Shown one piece after another: positions 9,201 through 61,866 of a stretch of DNA of 64,000 bases. Every line of letters starts with the position of its first letter. Positions within the stretch are counted from its first letter, which is position 1. Source of the stretch: Echinarachnius parma. Taxonomy: Eukaryota > Echinodermata > Echinoidea > Clypeasteroida > Echinarachniidae. The translations under genes and the position numbers were made by a program. The DNA lies in contig JBAMJV010001284.1 of assembly GCA_037951105.1 (NCBI GenBank), positions 62,001-126,000 on the forward strand, given 5' to 3'. Below the pieces are notes generated by a model. That model was not told the DNA's origin and searched no databases. It saw nothing but the letters and a program-made list of their open reading frames with translations.

Positions 9201-12200
9201 TTGACGATGCCATCGCTGGCAGCAAAGAATGCCAACACGTGGGTTATGAAGTGCTTTTCGCCAGGCTATAAGGAGAGAAGAGAAGAGTATAAAGGAAAGG
9301 AGATAAGTAAAACGATTTATAATGTGGCAGAATTTACCATAAACAGTGGTACCTTGTTATTATAATGCTCCACAAGGTTTTAATTGACTATATATACCAT
9401 CGCTGGCAGCAAAGATTGCTAACACATGGGTTATGAAGTGCTTTTCGCCCGGCTACGTGGGGAGAAAAGTGAGAAAAGAAGATAAGTAAAACTGTTGTGG
9501 CAGAGGTTAACATATAATGTAAGACGAACAAACTTGTTACACTTTGTATATGATTGCACACTATCCTGTTTATGACATGTCAGTGATGTTTCAATAATGT
9601 GTTTTAAAGGGTTAAAGCTAATGTGTTTGATCCATAATTGCGTATAATTGCGTATTTCTATCAATGATGTCAAGTGATGCTTTTAAAGATACCCATGACA
9701 TTTATATTCATCACTCCTGAGCAGTATTGCTGACAAAAAACAACAACAATGCTATAACATACCAGATTAAATTTCAATACACCGTGACAATTAGAATATC
9801 AACACAAGGATGCAATCAAATAAGATTTACCTTCATTCTGTTCCAATCCTTCCAGTCTTTACCAAGATCAACTTCCTCAGTTGTCCAGAACGATGCTGAA
9901 TGTAAATGAATTGGTCACAAATACATAAAATATTATGATCATGTTTTGCAAAGTAAATAAAGAAAGCAATTACATGTATGCCAACTTATTTGAGGCTCAC
10001 GCTTTCAAGGTGCAATGAGGTAAGTCTTTTAAAAGTATGACATATTTAAATTCAGCAATTAATATTTAATGTTCCAACCAATACCAAATCCTGTTCATTT
10101 CAATTCCTAAAAAATACTCACATCTGGGTGCGTGAAGGAATATTCATATAAATTGCAATGAAATGTCTTATTCTGCCAAATGGTTTACCACATAGGGTAG
10201 TAAGTTTAACTATAAGGTACCATTACCAGTCCTGGCAAACCGAACTGTCTTGTATGGCTAAAAGTTAATGAAATTTATTTTCTCTTTCATAGTCTTTACC
10301 TTGTGCTCTCTTGTAGAACTTCCAAATGTCTGGATACCTGATGGGGAAGAGAACATGGCGGTGGGGGTTGGGGGTGAGAAGGGGTTCCATCTCATCACTG
10401 CTTGGAGTCATTGACCTTCCATCCCCATCGAGTTCATTGACCTCTGGATGAAGTTCATTGACCTCTGGAAATAGTTCTTTGTCTTCTGGATGAAGTTCAT
10501 TGTCCTCTGGTGGAAATAGCTGCTTGTCTCCAGACGCTCCTTCCAGCGCAATCCTTCCCTCTGTCCTGCTCTCCCACTTTCCTCCATGTGCCAACTTTGA
10601 CCTTACGCTATCAGTGTCAGTTTCCAAATATCTGTGTTCATTGGAAGCTGCGATCGGTTTCACAGCATGGTGGCACGTGTGAGTTCCAAGTTTTCTGTGT
10701 CCTTGGTCACTTGATGTTGCTGGTGATTGGCACAGATTCTGCACAGACGGCGCTGATAACCCCTGCCATCTGATGTCGGTCTCCTCTTCGCATCTCTCAT
10801 CTGTGGTAACCGACATGGAGGAATCGCAGGCCTGCAAGCGGGTCAGGCTGCTCGGAAGTGATGACCTCTCATCCTCCTCCTCCTCCTCCACAGTCTCATC
10901 CCCATCACCTGCACGTTGGTTGCCATGGTGCCTCATTCTTTGTTGCACATCCTCCAGTTGACGGCTGTTTGGGCTTGCTGATGTTCCCTCGATGACGTCT
11001 GAATGCAGACCACCCGATTGCCGGCTTTTTGAATCACTCTCTTTGAGATTCGACGTACAAATGGCCGATCGCTGGCTCTCACATTCATCTCCATCCTCGT
11101 TGAAGTCCGACTGCAAATTGTTCAACTGAGAGTCAGGAACTGCGTCAACTGACATCATGGACACCTGGGATGAGGAGATGATGTGTTCGTCTCCTATCCC
11201 ATCATCGTCATGGTTACCGTCTTCCAGCCATCCAAGGGCCACTCCTCTCGCCTCCCCACCTCCTTCGGTGGGCAGACAAGGCATATCTCCCCTCTGCCGC
11301 TTCCTTTGGGGATCGGTGCTGTCTATCACTACCTGAAAATTATGGAAAGAGAGAAAATGTGGAGAGGCTTATGTCCATGAATAAATGTATATCACTTCTT
11401 ATGTTCTGCTTCAAACAGCAATGATGTAAACAATTAATTCAAAGGGGAAATTATCACAACTAAAGTTGTATCCAATGAATATGGATAGAACGATCGCAAT
11501 GCCACTTGTATAAAAAAAAACAATGTCAATGAGGATCAATTAATCAATGCACACCAAGGTAGGTTCACATTCAAAGACACACAATAAATTTTCTATCTAT
11601 AAATTGCAGAAAACCACAATAGAAATTTAGTGAACGAAAGGATGTCTTGACTCTTGCAATTTCATGTCGTAATTGATCTCTGTCTCAACTGTCAACAATA
11701 GGATATGGGATTCAGTTGACAGTCTCCATTTTTAAAATTTTGTTCATTAAGTTTTTCAAATTTGTCTTTACTTTTCTTTATGCTTGCCTTACGTAACAAG
11801 CAATGCAGGAGTTAATTTTTTATTTCAGGAGGCTACTTTTCCAATCTGATGGATATCCAGACATTTTTCACATAAAAGATGGTAATTTTAGGGGAGCTAC
11901 CTACTGATTTCAGGGGGCTATTTTGAATATTAGGGGGCAAAATCGCCCTCAGCCCCACATCTACAAAGTATATGGTCCACTTAGGTGGACCATTTACACG
12001 CAATATGGTAATACACGGGAGATTACCATACTGCCTATTCATACACTGTACCGTTCATCAGTTGAACGTCGTGTGTTAAGATGCATCGGTAATGAAAACA
12101 GACGGGGAAATAATCGTTTTTTTTCTACATTTTGCAATCTTCAAAACAACAAAGTCGGTAATTATTATCAAAGTATATGACTTAGGGATCACATAAACAA

Positions 12201-15200
12201 AAGTTTTTTTCATTTGCTGGTAAATTTAGGGAGAAATCGGCCGACAAAAATTGTTTGTTTTGGATAGTGCAGCAGGCAGAAGAGGTTGATCTCCACACAA
12301 TGCTACTGTAATGTACCTATGTGTGCTCAGCCCCACACATAGGTACATTACAATAGCGTTGTGCGGAGATCAACCTCTTCCGCCTGCTGCACTATCCAAC
12401 ACAAAAACATTTTTTGTCGGCCTATTTCTCCCTCCATTTACCAGCAACAATATACGGTACAATATACGCCAGATGGTGGACTGTACTTTCCAAGAAGAAG
12501 AAGAAGAAATGCAAAAAAACTTTCGTTTATGTGATTCACAATTCATATACTTTGATAATAATTACTGACTCTGTTGTTTTGAAGACTGCAAAATGTAGGA
12601 AAAAAACAATTATTTCCCATCCGTTTTCCTTACCGATGGCGATGCGTCCTAAAACATAGCGTTCAACTGTTGAACGGTACAGTGTACGAATGGGCAGAAT
12701 GCTTATCTCCAGCGTATATTGTGTGTAAATGGTCCAACTGATTGGACCATTTACTTTAGTAGATGTGCTCAGCCCCCGTATATTTCATACCCTGGTAAAA
12801 TTAAAAGCTATAATTTAGTATAAATAATTAATTAATTTATAATTATAAAGAAAGAGAAAGAAAGCCGTCACTGATTTCACGGGTACTATGCCCGTTTAAG
12901 AGGCACTTGACTGGCGGTATTCTCGAGTCTACCCGACCGTATATCCGCAGCGGCGGTAGACAATGAGTGCTCTCGTGCATGCCATGCCGACCTTTGTACC
13001 CCCGCGCGAGCGGCATGTATTGGGAATACATGACGCAAGCGCGGGCTATTCAAACTGGTCGGTCACACACGCACGAGCTAGATGCACCTCGGGAAAAGAC
13101 GCCATGTTTCGTTGCCAGTTCATCATAGGAGCGCGACGTGATCGGACGTGCGCCGGTACTGGATGGCCGAAATGGTGCCAGTTCATCCTACGAGCGTGAA
13201 GAGAGCAGACGTGCGCCGCGGGCGGGCGTTGCTCCGATCTTCGACGACACGAGGTTGGGGCTGGGCCGGTGGGATGGCGGATTCCAAAACGGGTTGTCGG
13301 GTAGACAAATTGGTGAAGGCTTTGGGGAAGCCATTTGAGTAGGTTGTTGTATAGGACCTAAATGTTATGTGTTTCACGTTGTGTGTCTTGTAGTTGTACC
13401 GTAAACTGTGTGTTTGTCGGGCACACGAGAAGGAAGCATGGCTCCACGAGGAGCCGAGGGTTTGGAAATGGGAATCCCGGGGATTCCCAGAGTTTGAAGG
13501 AACGGTCCGCCGAGCGAGATGACGGGCGAGTCACGTCGGAGCTCTGGAGGAGTCCGTTCTAGGTGAGTTACGTTTATGTTCGATTATCGTGTGACTGAGC
13601 GAGTGCGTGGTAATTGGCTGAGTATGAAGATAATTATGATTTTGATATAGCCCCGGCGGGCGGGGGCGCAGCACCCGCCCAAATCGGCTTTATTTGGCGC
13701 TGCGATAAATTAAAGAATAAAAAATTGAATGGGGGGGAAGGTGTGTTTATTTGGAAAATTAATGGAAATTTAGGAAAATTGAAATTATGGATTTTTGGGA
13801 GCACGTGGCGCGTGCAGGAAAGCACACTGTTTTTCTCGTTTAGTTGTATTGCGATAAAGTGTAGGGGGGCACTTTATACGGGAAGCCCCGTTGGTTGGGT
13901 GAAATTAGTGATTTTTGTGGATTATTTGGGATTTTTTGCGGATTCGGGGAAAGAAATTGAGGTTTTTTGGTATTTAAAATGATGCAATTGCATCGGGGAA
14001 AATGTTGTTGTTTTAGTAGGACTCACGAGGTGAGGGCCGATTTGAGCCATTGATTTAGTGTGTGGAAAATTGACAACGTGGCTTTTTGCACGGGAGTCCA
14101 TGCAGAGCGGACCCAGGCTATTGTTTCGATTGTTTTGCGATATAGGGTTGTAATAGTAAAAAGTGTTATTGTTGTTTTTCGGCGGAGTCAGTCGGGTTGA
14201 CGACTCTGATTTGAGGGGAATGCATTGCGCAATAATTTTCGCGATAGTGGTCGCACTGGCGTTTTGCATTTGTTTTGTGTGTAGTCTGGTTGTGTGATCA
14301 CACGGTGCATTAAAAAGTACAACATGAGTGTGATATGGTTTACCAGTGGATGGTTTTTTGCAGAGATCTTACGAGTTCTGTGAGGTAAGGTCGAGATTAG
14401 ACCGATATTTTGTTGGATTGTGATAACTGATTATTTTGGGAATGAGTGTTTCACAAATCGTGAAAGTGATGTGTTGTTTACAGGATCGATGCGATGTTCT
14501 GTAAATATTAGGATGATGATTTGACAGTACATCTGCCCACCCGTAAGGAATCGTGTCGGGTGTTCAGATGGTGCGTGATCCTGTCCACGGTCGTTTACAT
14601 ACTGCAGTGTTTGAATTATTGTTCGGTGATTATTTGCGGGCTTACTGGATTTGTAGTGAGTCTGTGAATTGTTGACTTGTATTTTTGTAAGGTGGATGAT
14701 CTTTATAAAATTACGATTACGATTTGTGTGGTGTTGTTTGGTGATTATCATGCTGTGTGATCATGATTTGTTGTGGAGTTGAGGCCAAGAGATTTAACCA
14801 ATGTGAGGTCGTACACCTGTGTGATGGTAGGCCAACAGAATCGGTTTGAGGTCGTCTGCGGGATCGTGGGGTCAAGACAACTATATGGTTTGAGGACTAT
14901 CAGTCTATGTACGAAGTCCAAGATGGGACCAGTTTGAGACCATGTATGTGTATGGAATGTAGGCAAAAATACCTGTGTGGTTTTGTCTTTGTTGTCGGTT
15001 GTTTGATTGTTGGCGTGGGTGTGTCCGTTGCGTGGATTGACATGATTGAACGTTTTGAAGCAGTTAAATTAAACATTCATGCGAGGTTTGTAAATATCAG
15101 TATCACTCGCATGAATTTTGTTAAATTTGTGTGAGAATCCTCACATGGATTATAATGTTTGTATTGTTTCAATGCAATAACCGTTGTGTTGAAATTTGTG

Positions 15201-18200
15201 AAATGCTGTAAATATGTGTGCTCTTTATGCCTTGCACTTTTATAAAAGGCATTGAGAAAATTACTAGATGTTTGGTAATTGTGGATGTTTGCTGGGGCCT
15301 GCGCTCCTAGTGAATATGTACAATTATAAAGGCGAAGTAGCCGATGGATTAATTTAGGGTTTGGTTAATAAAGGCCAAGCAGCCTAACCCAATTTAATTA
15401 TTAATTGACTTTCTAGTATAAATTTGCTGGAAGTGGCTTTATGAAAGTAAATGAGTTGGGAAGAATATTCAGAGTGTTCACAATAAATACACTCTGATAC
15501 AATTATGGGTTAGGATAAATTTAATAAGTTTGAGAAAGATACACTCTGACAAAAATATTCTGGGGAAGGGAATATTTTGTCTGGTTTTGTTTGATTTTTA
15601 CCCTTATGTCCTACTTCACTCGCGGTGATCCAGCGTTAACGGAATACACTTGTCGAGGAGACTAGTAGACACTGGGTGAATTCAACATTCTTTCTTTTAT
15701 TTTAAATTTAAGAAATCGCCCGCTGCCAAAAAGGGGTGGGAATGATTATGATTTATTTGGAAATAATTGCGAGAATTATTCGCGGTTTAAAATTTATTGA
15801 AGGTGAATTGTAACCTTCATTTGGGAATAGTTTAATAAAAAGAAGAATTGTTTATTGGTGCATACAGGAAATTTTGCGTGGTGCATCAGCCAATTGGGTG
15901 TCTTTTTTGGGTAGTGATTATTTATAGAAATTACTGGTGTTTATGCACACTGGTGGTTTACAAAATTAATGCACATGGAAATTGGGGTCATTTTTGGATT
16001 AATAGGATTTCAGAATAATAATTTTAGTTCATTGGAGAGTTTTTGAGAAAATAAAAGAAGCTCTTTAAAATAATTTTTTGGAAAGGGGAGGAGAGTGGGT
16101 TGAAAGTATTTGGCTGGGGGAATTTATTTTGAAAATTAGATATCAGCTAGATATTTTTGATTGATGACATTTGTTTAACCCTGCTTTTTAGTTCTTCTCT
16201 TTTCAGGAAAGATCGTCGTTCAGCTTCTCGCGGCGGCGATACATGGTTTAGCTGATATCAGCGCTGGAGTGAATTTGTCGTTTGTAGTTCGCATACAAGT
16301 TAGTGGCAGAATATTAATTTGAATAATTTGCGGTGGAATAATATGTGGTAGTTTCATGTTCACTCCAGTTGAGGTATTTAGTGTTAGTTCGCGAAGAGTT
16401 AGAAGGTACTCGCTTTATTTTATACTTCGCGGATACACGGTTGGAGTATTAGCACATCGCCCGACCTATGGTTTTATTTTAGGGCAACAGGACTCTGTTT
16501 TGATTGTTGCACTGGATATAGAAACATCCTTCGATTTTTGTGAAACCAACGTTGGAAGCGAATCCTTTGATTTATGGTGTTAGAGAGAAATGACTCTCAT
16601 TGCCATAATAACGTATGGTAATGTTTTTTAATTGAATTTAGGTTAGGGCGCATGAATTGTTTTGAAGTCAGGTCGCGGTTATTTTTAAGCTCATGAGTTA
16701 AATAAAATCGCGATACTTATGAGCGAGAGATTGAAGAAGACTCTACATTTATTTAGTAGACCAAGTGATTCTCCTTCAGCGAGTTCACATGGTCTGCGGT
16801 CTTTGCATTACCTCCGGTACCACTACCGGGCATATGCAAGCGGCCAGGATAGGGGAGCTACTTCAGTCCAATGTAATATGATCAGCTGGGTGTACCGGAC
16901 CGGTGGTGATCGGGCCCGGGTACTTCCCACTTTATTTATGACTGATTAATTACGTAATTTAGGGGGACCCGCGTAGACATAGCGGAGAGCGATTAGCGTC
17001 TTCTCATTGTGTAGCCATTTTAGGAGATTGGAGTTCTCCCATTAAAAACGTCGTGTAGCGAAGAGTATTTTGGGAGTCGACTACATTATAGTTTAGAGCA
17101 AGCCCAACGTTTGCAGCCAAGGAGTATGCTTTATTAAGTAATGCCTTTTTAGCATTGAACGATCGCTCGACTTTGTTAATTTTGGAATACACTTTAGCAG
17201 GGAATAATTTTCCCAGTATCGCATCGCAATTTGCGATGTATTTTTAGCCATTTGCGACACATATTTTTTTATGAATCGCACTTGTGCGCTGCAATGCAAG
17301 ATACATGTTTCACACAGCTGTGTAAGCATACATGTTTCACACACTAGCCAGCCCTGTGTATGCAAACTATGCAGACATGCAGTCTAGACATGCAGTTAAT
17401 TATGCAGTCTAGACATGCTGCTCTTCCAAGCTACACGTGGCTAGGCACACACAGCCGGCCAGCTAGCCCAGTGAGTGTGTATGCAATGTACTGCACTGCA
17501 CTGGGCTGATGTATCGCACGCTATACACAGTTTTCCACACAGCACAGTACACTTTCCTTACCTTAGTATAATTTCATTTGGTCATTGTGTGTGGTGTTAA
17601 TGTGCATTATGATTGCCTGAAAAAAAATTGCTATACAAGTTTATCCAATTGCTATACAAAAATTATTTTGTATAGCAAATTTGCTATGCAATTTTTGGGC
17701 TGGAAATTATTCCCTGCTTTAGTATAAGGAGCACCTAGGCAGCAAGTTTTGATGGAGCCGTTGGTAATAGCACTCCGAATGCAGTTGATGTCCTAGAATA
17801 TGCCGTTGCCGTGTAACCCGCAGAGTATGTTTATAGACTGACATGAGGCTGTTGCCGCTCAGCTAAAAGGATATATTTTGTAGGGTTTATTTTCTATATG
17901 GGAATGAAGCACTTCGCTACGACGCTACGGAGGAGCGATTTCGCGTTTATAGTTTCTACAATTTCGGAACTCGCAGAGCACACTTGGAATGGATTCGCGA
18001 ATACAGCAGTTCACCACAAGGCAACTTACATTAGAAGCGTGTGCCGAAGTTAAAGGGCCCTTTCTAATTATCGCCGGTTCTGGAACTTGTAGACTAGTAG
18101 CGCACGATCGCTCTACACTGTCTCGACGACACTACAGGGAAGTACTAGACAGATGAACACTGGGTAATGGGTATGACGTCCATGTTATATCATGTACGTG

Positions 18201-21200
18201 GGGTGTCATCTGTCAAGCTTCGAGGAGGTACCCACTCATTGTAGGATTGGCCAGGGACGTGATTTCAATAGGTAAGGTGAGCTTTGATCTTTATTTTTAT
18301 ATTTTGGATATCGCTGACCCTACATTATACGTGTTTGCATTGTGGGAGGCATGCACTTTATTTGAACACTCTGCTTTTGTTGGTGTAAAATTTAAAAAGG
18401 TCGCCAGCAGAGTTTTTAGCTCGAGTGTTCACGTGAATGCAGGAACTTCCTATAATTGGACACTTTTGACTATTTAAGGTTCCAGATGGACTTTATTGTG
18501 TTTCTTTCAATGGTTGTAAAATCCTGGAGTGTTTATGTCTGATATTGAAATATGGCTCTCCCTTAGATTCGTGTTAGACATAAATTCTCTCATAAGTCAG
18601 GATGACTTGTTGTTTTATGTTTGATTAACAATCGTCAACAATTACCGTTGGTGATGGACGACGTTTGTTGATCCTGGAGAGAAGTTAACTCCATGCTTTA
18701 ATTTGGTGTTGAGCAGACAAATGGTCCTCCGTTATTTGATTTGATTAGAGATCAAGAAGAATCTCTATTTGTTTGAATTGATTTATGGGGAGGCATTGCT
18801 CTTCTATAAAGAGTTTTAGGAAGATTTTGATGTTGAACGAACAGACATCGTTCACATAGTTTTTTATATAGATTTGTTAAGTAAGAGAGGCAATGAATAA
18901 GTCCTTTCGTATGGTGTATAAGTCGATATATATTTTGGTGCTTGAAAATTATGGGATAAGGGAGTGAAATAGTCTTATCCCAATCGCGCCGTTTGTGTTG
19001 GAAGATTTATTTGCGCAGAGAGTTAACATTTTGGGGTAAACTCTCTGGTTATGTTCTGAAATGCAGGGGTGTTGTTCTGTGTATATAGATTTAAGAGAGA
19101 ATTAAGTTATACACCCCTGTAAGCGGATAGGTTCGGAATTTAAAAGGAACCTAGGCTGCCTGAAATTCTCACTTGGCAAAGAATTTTTCTTTGAGGAGGG
19201 GGAATGGAAGGCAAAGCCATTTTTAAATTGTTGTGTTCCTTTTAAATTATCTTTGTTTAATGGAGTGGACAACATCATTGCATCGACTGGCAGTTTCATC
19301 GGGCGGTATTTGCGTTAGGACCAGGCACGAGGCTCTTGATCACAATTCGTGGTCAGATCCAACATGCATGGCCCTGATAAAAATGCTGTCCCTGACTGGG
19401 ATGTTTCAGCCTGTGCAGGCGAGTTTGTCTGTACTCCGAAGAACGCATACTCAGTTGTTGGGGCCTGTCAACCGGCTCTAAGCACAGGACCCGGGTTGTC
19501 CTCAATGCAGGCAACCAGGCTTCAGCGAAGAGCTTACCCCTTCGACCACAATTGAGATTGTAGTTCAGGCATTTTGTTATGTATTATAAGTTATTATTGA
19601 GGAGTGCTGCTCATTTGTATTCGGCAAATACAATTTGAGGAGCAGTATTTATGATGATTAAGGATGCTGGTCGTTCTACTTTGCATTATGTTTGTTTGGT
19701 CTATTGCTCTATTGAGTCTCGCTACAGGAATTCCTTGGACTGTTCGGGAGAATACTGGCTAGATTTTATTGGATAAGTGATAGGCTGAAATGTTGATTAG
19801 AATGGTTTAGGCGGAAACGTCGATTGGAATGGTTTCGGTTGAAATGTTAATTTGAACTGTTTCAATTGATTGTTTGTGATTTACACGTCTTTTAAGTTTC
19901 CACGGGTTCAGGCTTGGACGGAAGGAATTAGTCCGTCTTTTTATATCCTGACTGGAACCGTTGGAGTTAAATAATTTTTATGTTTAATTGGTTTCAGGTG
20001 CGGGAAGGAAGGATTTACTCATCCTTTCTTTCCTTGCTTGAATTGTTAGAGGTTGACAGGAAGAATTTCTGTTGATGATTTGTTTTGGATTCCAGAAGAA
20101 ATTCACTGGAATTCAACACATCTTCCTGTCATATCTCTATATTGTTTTCTCAAGTGTTTTTGCAGGTGGTCTTTTCAGGAGCTTGAAGTGTGTGCGGACC
20201 CCTTCGTGCTCCTAAGAGACTAGAGACCTCGTTGATAGGGGACCCGATCCCTATCCAAGTATATATGTATATTAGCGAAAAGGAGAGGCAGGACCTTCAG
20301 GGTAAGTTTACAAAAACATGCTCCTTGAAGGAATCCTCCCGAATCCTTATAGGGGCCTTGACTCGTTCCAGGATATTGTCCAATATGACAACTCCTGGCT
20401 GGTAAGGGTTCCTTTAAAGGGTTGGACAGTTGATGGGACCCCCTACCATTTAAAAGTGGGCGGGGCCATTCAACACAGTCTAAGTTCACTGTGATGAGGC
20501 CCAAGCGATTGCTCTTCGGAGATTGCGGGCCATCCATCACATTGGGCCATTCACTAGGACGTGGCCCTAGCGTTTGCTCTTCGGAGATCGCAGGGCCATT
20601 CAGGTTCGGCAGTTCCTGGCAGCAATTGAGGGTTCGGGAAATCAATTGCTGGCATGGATACCGTGAGATCAGTGCGACTATTCCTTACGTTTGGAGCTCA
20701 TTTCCACGCTGGAACTAAGCTCTATTAAACGAGGGGGATTGAAGCCGTCACTGATTTCACGGGTACTATGCCCGTTTAAGAGGCACTTGACTGGCGGTAT
20801 TCTCGAGTCTACCCGACCGTATATCCGCAGCGGCGGTAGACAATGAGTGCTCTCGTGCATGCCATGCCGACCTTTGTACCCCCGCGCGAGCGGCATGTAT
20901 TGGGAATACATGACGCAAGCGCGGGCTATTCAAACTGGTCGGTCACACACGCACGAGCTAGATGCACCTCGGGAAAAGACGCCATGTTTCGTTGCCAGTT
21001 CATCATAGGAGCGCGACGTGATTGGACGTGCGCCGGTACTGGATGGCCGAAATGGTGCCAGTTCATCCTACGAGCGTGAAGAGAGCAGACGTGCGCCGCG
21101 GGCGGGCGTTGCTCCGATCTTCGACGACACGAGGTTGGGGCTGGGCCGGTGGGATGGCGGATTCCAAAACGGGTTGTCGGGTAGACAAATTGGTGAAGGC

Positions 21201-22055
21201 TTTGGGGAAGCCATTTGAGTAGGTTGTTGTATAGGACCTAAATGTTATGTGTTTCACGTTGTGTGTCTTGTAGTTGTACCGTAAACTGTGTGTTTGTCGG
21301 GCACACGAGAAGGAAGCATGGCTCCACGAGGAGCCGAGGGTTTGGAAATGGGAATCCCGGGGATTCCCAGAGTTTGAAGGAACGGTCCGCCGAGCGAGAT
21401 GACGGGCGAGTCACGTCGGAGCTCTGGAGGAGTCCGTTCTAGGTGAGTTACGTTTATGTTCGATTATCGTGTGACTGAGCGAGTGCGTGGTAATTGGCTG
21501 AGTATGAAGATAATTATGATTTTGATATAGCCCCGGCGGGCGGGGGCGCAGCACCCGCCCAAATCGGCTTTAGGCAGAATGCTTATCTCCAGCGTATATT
21601 GCGTGTAAATGGTCCAACTGATTGGACCATTTACTTTAGTAGATGTGCTCAGCCCCCGTATATTTCATACCCTGGTAAAATTAAAAGCTATAATTTAGTA
21701 TAAATAATTAATTAATTTATAATTATAAAGAAAGAGAAATATAAATAATGAAATAACAATGCAATCTACGATATGATCGAGTCACCACTAGCACTGAGAT
21801 GAGCAAATTAAAGTCAAAATGTTCGTACATTTTGCACTCCGTTTGAGTTGACTTTGCATCAATGGCAATGCCATCAATCATCCATCATTCATTTCATTTC
21901 AATTTCAGTTACAATTTACGCATTCACGTTCACTAACGCTAGTTCTTACGTATGGGACTACACAATTAACCAGGGCGAATATGTAATATCATGAATTAAT
22001 GATTGAAATTGGTTATATTTACCTGATTTCTCTTCGTGCTTTTGAAGATGTCCAT
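6107..22055 (-). CDS. RRM2: Ribonucleoside-diphosphate reductase small subunit (R2), full gene of 8 coding exons
   Basis: R2 pairs with the large subunit R1 to reduce ribonucleotides to deoxyribonucleotides, and houses the di-iron/tyrosyl radical. Coding segments are 22055-22023, 11332-10300, 9895-9831, 9265-9119, 8676-8586, 7741-7594, 7080-6810 and 6262-6107. Splice phases agree throughout and the total is 1,944 nt (647 residues). The expected metal ligands are D395, E426, H429, E489, E523 and H526. The radical tyrosine is Y433 in the motif MENIHSEMY. The C-terminus FTLDADF is the known R1-binding tail. Residues 1 to about 326 are an acidic, serine-rich extension absent from typical animal R2 (human R2 is 389 residues). 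It contains a basic stretch RKRQR at 21-25 and an acidic run. It could be RRM2 or an RRM2B-like paralogue. Intron 1 carries a foldback element and an antisense LTR element. Confidence 0.93.
6429..6650. repeat. Tandem duplication in RRM2 intron (about 110-bp unit, 2 copies)
   Basis: TCTTATTGTTTGAAGTGGC recurs at 6429 and 6543, and both copies end in TTTTCAACATGTGGTTTCA. The second copy has a small insertion. Short open frames here are shadows. Confidence 0.85.
6810..7080 (-). CDS. RRM2: RRM2 coding exon 7
   Basis: It encodes [20 protein letters not shown], with ligands E523 and H526, through [11 protein letters not shown] and [11 protein letters not shown]. The acceptor is ACCCAG and the donor is the weaker GTACTA. 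It leaves in phase 0. Confidence 0.95.
7140..7560. repeat. Imperfect GAT trinucleotide microsatellite region
   Basis: About 420 bp is dominated by GATGATGAT with interruptions, on the plus strand of an RRM2 intron. Serine- and isoleucine-rich minus-strand frames here are artefacts of the repeat. Confidence 0.9.
7594..7741 (-). CDS. RRM2: RRM2 coding exon 6
   Basis: It encodes [15 protein letters not shown], then [19 protein letters not shown], with ligand E489. It enters in phase 1 and leaves in phase 2 at donor GTAAGA. Confidence 0.95.
7908..8145. mobile_element. MITE with 34-bp terminal inverted repeats in RRM2 intron
   Basis: ACTGGATATAGCAAAACCC starts the left end and GGGTTTTGCTATATCCAGT closes the right. 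The 34-bp ends differ at one position (7908-7941 against 8112-8145). The 238-bp element has no coding capacity. Confidence 0.8.
8333..8575. mobile_element. Dispersed repeat with ACAGTCAAACCTG ends
   Basis: It starts ACAGTCAAACCTG and reaches CAGGTTTGACTGT at 8496, followed by a second partial unit. Related sequence occurs at 58385-58570, and a fragment near 47100-47180. The shared phrase GGTGGTCACTATACACAGG marks the family. Confidence 0.65.
8586..8676 (-). CDS. RRM2: RRM2 coding exon 5
   Basis: It begins [17 protein letters not shown], with iron ligand H429 and the radical tyrosine Y433. The donor is GTGAGT. It enters in phase 0 and leaves in phase 1. Confidence 0.95.
8803..9118 (-). pseudogene. 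Two decayed tandem copies of the 3' end of RRM2 exon 4 with donor
   Basis: Units of about 155 bp each start with a copy of the exon-4 end. At 8961 the minus strand reads GTGCTTCTATGGATTCCAG, then a GTAAGT donor. At about 8812 a more decayed version has an in-frame TAG. The intact exon ends at 9119. They are remnants of local tandem duplication and do not maintain the reading frame of the whole exon. Confidence 0.75.
9119..9265 (-). CDS. RRM2: RRM2 coding exon 4
   Basis: These 49 codons run from [19 protein letters not shown], holding iron ligand D395, to the FYGFQIAME end, holding ligand E426. The acceptor is TTATAG and the donor GTAGGT, in phase 0 at both ends. Fragments of this exon are duplicated in both flanking introns. 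Confidence 0.95.
9365..9480 (-). pseudogene. Decayed copy of the 5' part of RRM2 exon 4
   Basis: It repeats the exon-4 stretch at 9188-9300, for example CATCGCTGGCAGCAAAG and GGTTATGAAGTGCTTTTCGC, with an insertion and substitutions that break the frame. With the copies on the other side it shows that exon 4 was caught in a tandem duplication. Confidence 0.75.
9831..9895 (-). CDS. RRM2: RRM2 coding exon 3
   Basis: It encodes [15 protein letters not shown] and onward, the strongly conserved start of the R2 fold. The acceptor is ATTCAG and the donor GTAAAT. It enters in phase 1 and leaves in phase 0. Confidence 0.92.
10300..11332 (-). CDS. RRM2: RRM2 coding exon 2: long N-terminal extension plus start of R2 core
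   Basis: This 1,033-nt exon enters in phase 0 and leaves in phase 1 at donor GTAAAG. The first 315 codons are hydrophilic, rich in Ser, Glu, Asp and Gly, and have no domain I recognise. The last 29 codons are classic R2 ([16 protein letters not shown], then [10 protein letters not shown]). The uninterrupted open frame and direct fusion to the R2 core argue that the extension is coding. An exon this long is unusual among the 65-271 nt exons of the rest of the gene. Confidence 0.85.
10427..10510 (-). repeat. Coding minisatellite in the R2 extension (4 x 21 bp)
   Basis: Four consecutive 7-residue units read [21 protein letters not shown] and PEVNELD on the minus strand. The period is 21 bp and the frame is preserved, so copy-number changes would lengthen or shorten the protein without a frameshift. 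Confidence 0.85.
11956..12767. mobile_element. 812-bp foldback (snap-back) element in RRM2 intron 1
   Basis: The arms of about 370-430 bp are inverted copies centred near 12,330. CACATCTAC starts the left end and GTAGATGTG closes the right. Each arm carries its own small hairpin (TGGTCCACTTAGGTGGACCA; TGGTCCAACTGATTGGACCA). The motif CTCAGCCC occurs just outside or at both ends and again at the centre, so it looks like two head-to-head units. No coding capacity is seen. Confidence 0.85.
12693..12859. repeat. 167-bp duplicated flank, left copy
   Basis: It is the last part of the foldback element plus about 90 bp of neighbouring AT-rich DNA. The same 167 bp, with one visible substitution (T/C around 12,721), recurs at 21573-21739, immediately after the LTR element. 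The duplication ends within two bases of the left LTR. Confidence 0.9.
12862..13692 (+). repeat. 5' LTR
   Basis: This 831-bp GC- and CpG-rich repeat begins AAGCCGTCACTG and ends CCAAATCGGCTTTA. It contains a good splice donor (CTAG followed by GTGAGT) at about 13,562 and a GC-rich hairpin-like stretch near its 3' end. Short frames in it, such as 13148-13342, are present in both LTRs but resemble nothing I know. Confidence 0.88.
13695..13705 (+). other. Candidate primer-binding site
   Basis: TGGCGCTGCGA lies 2 nt after the LTR, the normal position of a tRNA primer site. It would pair with a 3' end of the form TCGCAGCGCCA, compatible with a serine tRNA. Only 11 bases fit, so the assignment is tentative. 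Confidence 0.4.
13706..20730 (+). other. LTR element interior, no coding sequence recognised
   Basis: About 7 kb, G+T-rich on the plus strand. Candidate acceptors such as TTCTCTTTTCAG at about 16,206 exist, so spliced transcripts from the LTR are conceivable. A nested element lies at 17198-17716. Near 20,490-20,605 two copies of TTGCTCTTCGGAGAT form a short direct repeat. I could not find motifs of retroelement enzymes in any frame. Confidence 0.6.
17198..17716. mobile_element. hAT-like MITE nested in the LTR element
   Basis: The ends are inverted repeats (CAGGGAATAATTT and AAATTATTCCCTG), and CTTTAG lies directly outside both ends as a probable target duplication. CAGGG termini are common in hAT elements, though those usually make 8-bp duplications. 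At 519 bp with no frame, it inserted after the LTR element interior existed. Confidence 0.65.
20731..20738 (+). other. Candidate polypurine tract
   Basis: GAGGGGGA ends 3 nt before the right LTR, where second-strand priming would occur in an LTR retrotransposon. Confidence 0.45.
20742..21572 (+). repeat. 3' LTR
   Basis: It is identical to 12862-13692 except C to T at 21023. It is preceded by TTG, whereas the left LTR is preceded by GA. It abuts directly on the second copy of the 167-bp flank. Confidence 0.88.
21573..21739. repeat. 167-bp duplicated flank, right copy
   Basis: It starts at the base after the right LTR (GGCAGAATGCTTATCTCC) and ends AAAGAGAAA before sequence that is not duplicated. 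It matches 12693-12859. It is far longer than the 4-6 bp target duplications of LTR retrotransposons. Confidence 0.9.
22023..22055 (-). CDS. RRM2: RRM2 coding exon 1
   Basis: It encodes [11 protein letters not shown] and ends CAG followed by the donor GTAAAT, in phase 0. This matches exon 2, whose frame starts at the first base after its TTTTCAG acceptor. The start was chosen because an in-frame TAG lies six codons upstream. The exon recognition rests on phase and splice sites, not on conservation, so it is less certain than the others. Confidence 0.65.
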
Positions 22056-22059
22056 ACAC

Positions 22060-22080
22060 TCATTCGATTGCTAACACCAT
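22060..22080 (-). promoter_or_regulatory. Upstream ORF in RRM2 leader
   Basis: A 6-codon frame (MVLAIE, stop TGA) lies just upstream of the chosen RRM2 start. Its stop overlaps another ATG (22063-22061) whose frame, [14 protein letters not shown], runs over the RRM2 start and stops at the exon 1/exon 2 junction. Both would lower initiation at the RRM2 ATG if they lie in the mRNA. Confidence 0.4.
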
Positions 22081-22128
22081 GGAATGAAAATAGACACATA
22101 TCCTACACAAAATGGGAAAATTCATTCA

Positions 22129-22134
22129 TTTATA
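22129..22134 (-). promoter_or_regulatory. Possible TATA element of RRM2
   Basis: The minus strand reads GATTATAAATG about 75 nt upstream of the RRM2 ATG, with GCGCGG just upstream of it, which could serve as an E2F-type half. It is a weak single-motif call. Confidence 0.25.
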
Positions 22135-22139
22135 ATCAC

Positions 22140-23146
22140 CGCGCTAATAACAATTTGTGATGCAGCTGCAGAAATATAACATCGCACAACTTTATTCGCA
22201 CAAAACAAATCGATTTTGTATAGGGGCGGGAGCTACAAAGGAATGTATAGCCATGGGTAAAACACGTAATCACTGCATTAATGCGGACGATGTATTTTTG
22301 TGTCAAACAACTTATGGGTTTAAATGCCCAATTCTTGATTTCGTAATTTTGGGACATGTTATTACATGATGATGATGATGCACCCACGCCTAATTATCGT
22401 TTTGTGATGAGCAAGTGAGAGACAGATACAAAAACAAATCATATAATGGGGGAAAGGGAGCTTGAAGATAAGTGGAGGAATTAGCCTCCAACTAGCTCTT
22501 TATTCATTTTACTTTACGGTGAGCCTAGCTGGGTCATTTATAGCTGTCTCCTTTCTCCCTTTATCATCTGTATAATTATCTTCTTTCAGTTTGGAGAAAA
22601 TTATTGTCCCCCCAATATTCGCCACTGTTAGTGACTGATGTACTTGTTGGCCCAATAAATACTAATACAATTAATAATACAATTTTTTTTTTTTTTTTTT
22701 CTTTTATTGAATTCCATTTCTTTTGTTTGATTTTTCTCTGATCATGCATTTATTGTTGACTGTGCATGTGCATTCAGTACGATTTTACTATAGGGAAAGT
22801 TTTAGATAGGCAAACTCAAAACTAAAATGCGGTAACAAAAACACACGAACATGAACATGAACAATCATAATCATAATTAAAGTCCACTCCTAAACATCTA
22901 TGTGAGCAACATTTAATGTAGCAATTATGCTATAAACTATTTTCCCCCTACAGTACGCCGACCCAGTAGGGCAAGTAAATGCAGTTCTTTCGCCACAATA
23001 TACTGGTCTAAAAGCTGAATATAGCTGCTAGATTCAGCTGCTGATAGCCCCTCAAAAATACAATCATAAAAGTTATGTTATATATTTGGTTACCGTAGTT
23101 CGGGTGAGTAAAATTTAGATTAATTTAATTGTGATGGCCCAAATGC
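22140..23146. other. RRM2 upstream / NFI downstream intergenic, nothing further seen
   Basis: It contains a poly-T run at about 22,683-22,701. AATAAA hexamers on the minus strand near 22,499 and 22,754 could end the NFI transcript. No coding frame is supported. Confidence 0.35.

Positions 23147-32079: not shown

Positions 32080-61866
<29,787 letters not shown>

Follow-up and report, generated by a model that had tools for sequence, protein, structure and literature searches.

An LTR element with one damaged end and a 167-bp flanking duplication in Echinarachnius parma, a probable case of one-ended integration

Long host duplications at described insertion sites

A long host duplication combined with one damaged element end is a known, yet uncommon, accident of retroviral-type integration. 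In the published survey of 15 XMRV integration sites, the host duplication was 4 bp at 13 sites and 5 bp at one, and at the remaining site, clone C-3, it reached 273 bp (PMC2857682). In the description of that clone, the U3 end of the left LTR lacks 5 bp, including the conserved dinucleotide (PMC2857682). Aberrant HIV-1 proviruses formed by inhibited or mutant integrase, as portrayed in PMC5041404, mostly have one normal end, and truncation is frequent at the other. Their commonest outcome is a host duplication, hundreds to thousands of base pairs long, and in the model put forward there a host polymerase uses nearby host DNA to extend the viral end left unjoined, after which recombination follows (PMC5041404).

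Comparable duplications are on record for the endogenous retrovirus HERV-K (HML-2). From 451 loci with a putative duplication, Kahyo and colleagues list eight in which it exceeds 10 bp (13, 18, 61, 96, 111, 206, 250 and 450 bp), crediting earlier cases to Mamedov et al. 2004 (PMC5488345); a further source on long HERV-K target duplications is PMC4422153. According to the same list, five of the eight loci are solo LTRs, the empty site was determined for two, and at one long-duplication locus two nucleotides lie between the duplication and the LTR (PMC5488345). Kahyo and colleagues caution that some of these long duplications may be later rearrangements (PMC5488345).

Anatomy of the element and the duplicated tract

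In the window, by which we mean the whole 64,000-nt stretch of E. parma DNA analyzed here, an LTR element lies on the forward strand between two copies of a host tract. Its right LTR (20740-21572) is complete by comparison with sibling LTRs: it opens with TG at 20740-20741, after a polypurine-like stretch, and closes with TA, as in its own subfamily. The left LTR (12862-13692), which starts AAGCCG and ends CGGCTTTA, lacks the first two bases. Over the part common to both LTRs (12862-13692 and 20742-21572), a script found one difference in 829 positions compared, C at 13143 and T at 21023. At the outer left end, GA (12860-12861) stands in place of the U3-terminal TG that is present in the 18 sibling copies tabulated below and in the copy's own right LTR. 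Because this GA in place of TG is the sole abnormality at either end, the element is taken to span 12860-21572 (8713 bp).

The family's LTRs start with TG and end with CA, replaced by TA in a subfamily that includes the window copy. Near-identical direct LTRs with such family ends identify an LTR retrotransposon, even though the outer left end of this copy lacks TG. An earlier note on this DNA had stated that the LTR ends lack TG...CA. This is misleading: the outer left end has no TG and the subfamily ends in TA, but the right LTR and the siblings do start with TG, so the missing dinucleotide is a defect of a single outer end and not a trait of the element. Loss of the TG through later mutation appears unlikely from the sequence, because it would take two changes in two bases against one in 829 elsewhere in the LTRs.

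Between the LTRs lies an internal region of 7047 bp (13693-20739). By eye, TGGCGCTGCGA, just inside the left LTR, resembles a primer-binding site and GAGGGGGAT, preceding the right LTR, resembles a polypurine tract; both assignments are putative. A nested insertion (17198-17716) has inverted ends, CAGGGAATAATT...AATTATTCCCTG, and CTTTAG on each side, with ends and flanks likewise placed by eye. It has no counterpart match in a sibling copy, C8293, which has long internal stretches in common with the window copy at 86 to 92% identity. C8293 (L049) itself has an insertion in its internal region, an array of ttcgttattccgaagg-like repeats that run in both orientations.

The internal region has no recognizable coding sequence. 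Its longest stop-to-stop frame, 154 codons, was equalled or exceeded in 13 of 200 base shuffles. A coding function within the element was considered and set aside: the 10 frames tested, out of 47 of at least 60 codons, gave no Pfam match above the cut-off and two weak ones below it (LPD3, E 0.0097; DUF4922, E 0.05), and the gag and pol sequences of an autonomous LTR retrotransposon were not among them. A 67-codon frame (17953-18153) that by look resembled a UvrD-type helicase fragment was dropped after Pfam, at E up to 1, and solved structures both came back empty. A search of Rfam over 11500-22500 returned nothing at gathering scores. Because recognizable coding sequence is lacking, the element is probably non-autonomous. 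Large retrotransposon derivatives (LARDs) are long LTR elements without recognizable coding sequence that are probably mobilized in trans.

Outside the element, the window holds two minus-strand open frames with partial or weak matches. In a 367-codon frame (10265-11368), the terminal ~50 residues match ribonucleotide reductase subunit M2 in its N-terminal part (best E 1.7e-07), and the long stretch before that match has no Pfam match. A 182-codon frame (45757-46305) matches the CTF/NF-I family weakly, below the cut-off (E 0.005).

The host tract flanking the element is 167 bp long. Its left copy (12693-12859) and right copy (21573-21739), both in forward orientation, are identical at 166 of 167 positions, the sole substitution being T at 12722 against C at 21602. 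The first base of the right copy is the next one after the intact U5 junction, directly abutting the right LTR; the left copy stops two bases short of recognizable left LTR. The homology of the two copies ends at the element on either side. A match of this quality abutting both ends of an element cannot be a product of chance, and the duplication, which the earlier note had described in these terms, is real. Among foldback relatives compared at the position of 12722, five of six have C and one has T, so the base in the left copy is probably the derived one.

Also as that note had described, the duplicated tract combines the end of a foldback element with other DNA. The foldback element, a long inverted repeat, occupies 11960-12767 and has one end inside the tract. 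The inverted-repeat alignment runs to about 12767 and relatives match to 12767-12785, leaving roughly 75-92 bp of other DNA. In a genome search that scored the best 40 of 2979 first-look candidates, the foldback end had at least 41 further matches on other contigs. Among the matches scored, the non-foldback 75-92 bp was met only at the two window sites, and there was no third copy of the whole tract.

A 4-bp norm among sibling copies

The LTR search returned at least 55 matches, and among the 40 scored of 162 candidates the nearest other LTRs are about 96.5% identical to those of the window copy. The window copy is a young member of a large LTR retrotransposon family. A script tabulation of outer junctions covered 18 further copies in which both outer ends are in view, 13 with two LTRs and five with a single LTR. 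In 17 of these the target duplication is exactly 4 bp, directly outside intact TG...CA or TG...TA ends, five of them TA-ended. Excluded were copies showing a single outer end (for example C3833, C591, C8293, C5162, C1074, C1487 and more distant relatives, the last from a search that scored 40 of 115 candidates) and those with incomplete LTR matches (C7897, C11081, C4502). One further copy, C8951, was left uncounted; it has a left flank in common with C12351, and to judge from this sequence the two may be one locus. In C12351 the outer LTRs stand 17.5 kb apart in AT-rich flanks, for which reason its 4-bp match is weaker evidence than the others. Separately, a solo LTR in C7952 (L032) and an LTR with internal sequence in C5162 (L080) have the same right flank, and represent either both haplotypes of one locus, retained side by side in the assembly, or a locus that has been duplicated.

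A short target duplication of fixed length is therefore the rule in this family, and it is absent from two copies. At the window copy, the junction tabulation found no ordinary 4-bp duplication; the right end is complete and the outer left end is without TG. At the other, C13554 (loci L021 and L025), the left end is intact, the right LTR is cut back by ~20 bp and there is no target duplication, and a comparison of its two flanks for a longer common repeat found only chance-level matches of 10-13 bp. C13554 is possibly a deletion-type counterpart of the window copy.

The 167-bp duplication is thus a one-off and not a property of the element. A new integrase with a wide stagger is ruled out by the 4-bp duplications of 17 of the 18 siblings. 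An element of another class, such as the tyrosine-recombinase or Penelope type, was considered because the ends had been described as lacking TG...CA; the same duplications, together with the TG...CA/TA family ends, rule it out.

Origin of the duplication and its parallels

We consider it probable that the insertion was made by uncoordinated, one-ended integration, with the U5 end joined normally and the U3 end joined by host repair. The intact U5 (right) end would have been attached to host DNA at GGCA by integrase, as in an ordinary insertion. Its partner, the U3 (left) end without the terminal TG, would then have failed to join 4 bp away, and host repair would have linked it instead to a point 167 bp further along, the left junction being made by repair synthesis or end joining. 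With the U3 end joined there, the stretch between the two joining points would come to lie on both sides of the element. Polypurine-tract cleavage during reverse transcription fixes the first bases of the outer left LTR. The U3 end may thus have been damaged beforehand, for example by slightly misplaced cleavage at this tract, which would cost the outer left LTR its TG and spare that of the right LTR, as is observed.

Two features of the window copy are those expected of uncoordinated integration: one end is normal and the other altered, and the duplication, at 167 bp, is not of the 4-bp length that siblings have. In our analysis, one-ended integration would predict just this pattern of a long duplication around an element whose U5 end, at GGCA, is intact and whose U3 end is damaged. 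The numbers of differences between the LTRs (1/829) and between the host repeats (1/167) are compatible with a single event (Fisher p = 0.31). The GA at the left junction may be a 2-bp filler, or may reflect a 2-bp microhomology (AA) with a gained GAAA unit. Uncoordinated end joining, already suggested in the earlier note, is the best-supported reading, and it has close precedents in the XMRV, HIV-1 and HERV-K accounts cited above.

An ordinary insertion with a 4-bp duplication at GGCA would have ended in an identical sequence, with its right end intact and its left end damaged, if a break had later occurred at the left junction. The broken left flank would have copied some 163 bp, with the homologue, the sister or the right flank as template, before being joined to an LTR that had lost its TG. 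Long inverted repeats are break-prone, and one lies immediately left of the site. This course of events would require two events where one is enough, and the near identity of both the LTRs and the host repeats leaves little time between any two events; we think it unlikely.

An assembly artefact, made by stitching together two haplotypes or else a pair of reads that both end within the element, seems quite unlikely. The assembly comprises 14790 contigs, and some loci may exist in it as two haplotypes, such as the pair with a common right flank in C7952 and C5162. Stitching two normal insertions would nevertheless have left the left-end TG in place, and the right flank of the window copy, searched in the assembly, is single-copy except for a weak 48-bp match, with no empty allele or second haplotype found. 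The earlier note would have yielded to ordinary 4-6 bp duplications in other copies combined with misassembly here: the ordinary duplications were found, and a misassembly could not be demonstrated.

The foldback element offers another route, which we regard as very doubtful: its long inverted repeat, extruded or under repair, could trap one cDNA end while the other is joined far away, making foldback ends hot spots for one-ended LTR insertion. The insertions in C4302 and C685 lie just outside a short taaatggtcc...ggaccattta...tagatgtg motif that by eye resembles this foldback end. C9052 has a foldback-end piece about 115 bp past its right end, and C3455 has foldback-like sequence a few hundred bases outside each end. 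In all four the duplication is an ordinary 4-bp one, which argues against such hot spots, as does the abundance of the foldback family in the genome (2979 first-look candidates); with a family this common, nearness to a foldback means little by itself.

If each of two homologues had received its own insertion, 167 bp from the other, crossing over within the elements would place the same tract on both sides of a single composite element. The idea is akin to the published 'pseudo-TSD', of which a segmental-duplication version is discussed for HERV-K in PMC5488345. We find it highly improbable, since it predicts normal outer ends on both sides, and the left one is abnormal; moreover, with LTRs differing at 1 of 829 positions and the nearest other LTR only ~96.5% identical, the two insertions would need to be each other's closest relatives among the 40 of 162 LTR candidates scored. 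Finally, a tandem 167-bp host duplication predating the insertion is unlikely, because the junctions coincide with the boundaries of the repeat and one of the LTR ends shows damage.

One-ended integration, if it is the origin of this insertion, is a phenomenon already known, and the window copy adds a further natural germline case. It would be a recent instance of LTR DNA with a single normally joined end, beyond the HERV-K and cell-culture precedents, with the defect at the failed end still visible and the siblings serving as a clean internal control. A long flanking duplication is not in itself a sign of a new integration mechanism, and the condition of both LTR ends should be considered along with it. 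With C13554 as a second candidate in the family, a genome-wide measurement of how often such accidents happen would be feasible.

Set beside known systems, the window element is like LARDs in being long, LTR-flanked and without recognizable coding sequence, although LARDs are known mainly from plants. HERV-K provides germline LTR insertions with long target duplications, there from a human endogenous retrovirus (PMC5488345). The aberrant HIV-1 proviruses described in PMC5041404 resemble the window copy in their one normal end and long host duplication, but were provoked by drugs or enzyme mutations in cell culture. XMRV clone C-3, as documented in PMC2857682, likewise combines a long host duplication with a left LTR shortened at its U3 end and a normal other end; the clone differs in being an exogenous retrovirus in an experimental cell infection, and in having lost 5 bp from the U3 end, against 2 here.
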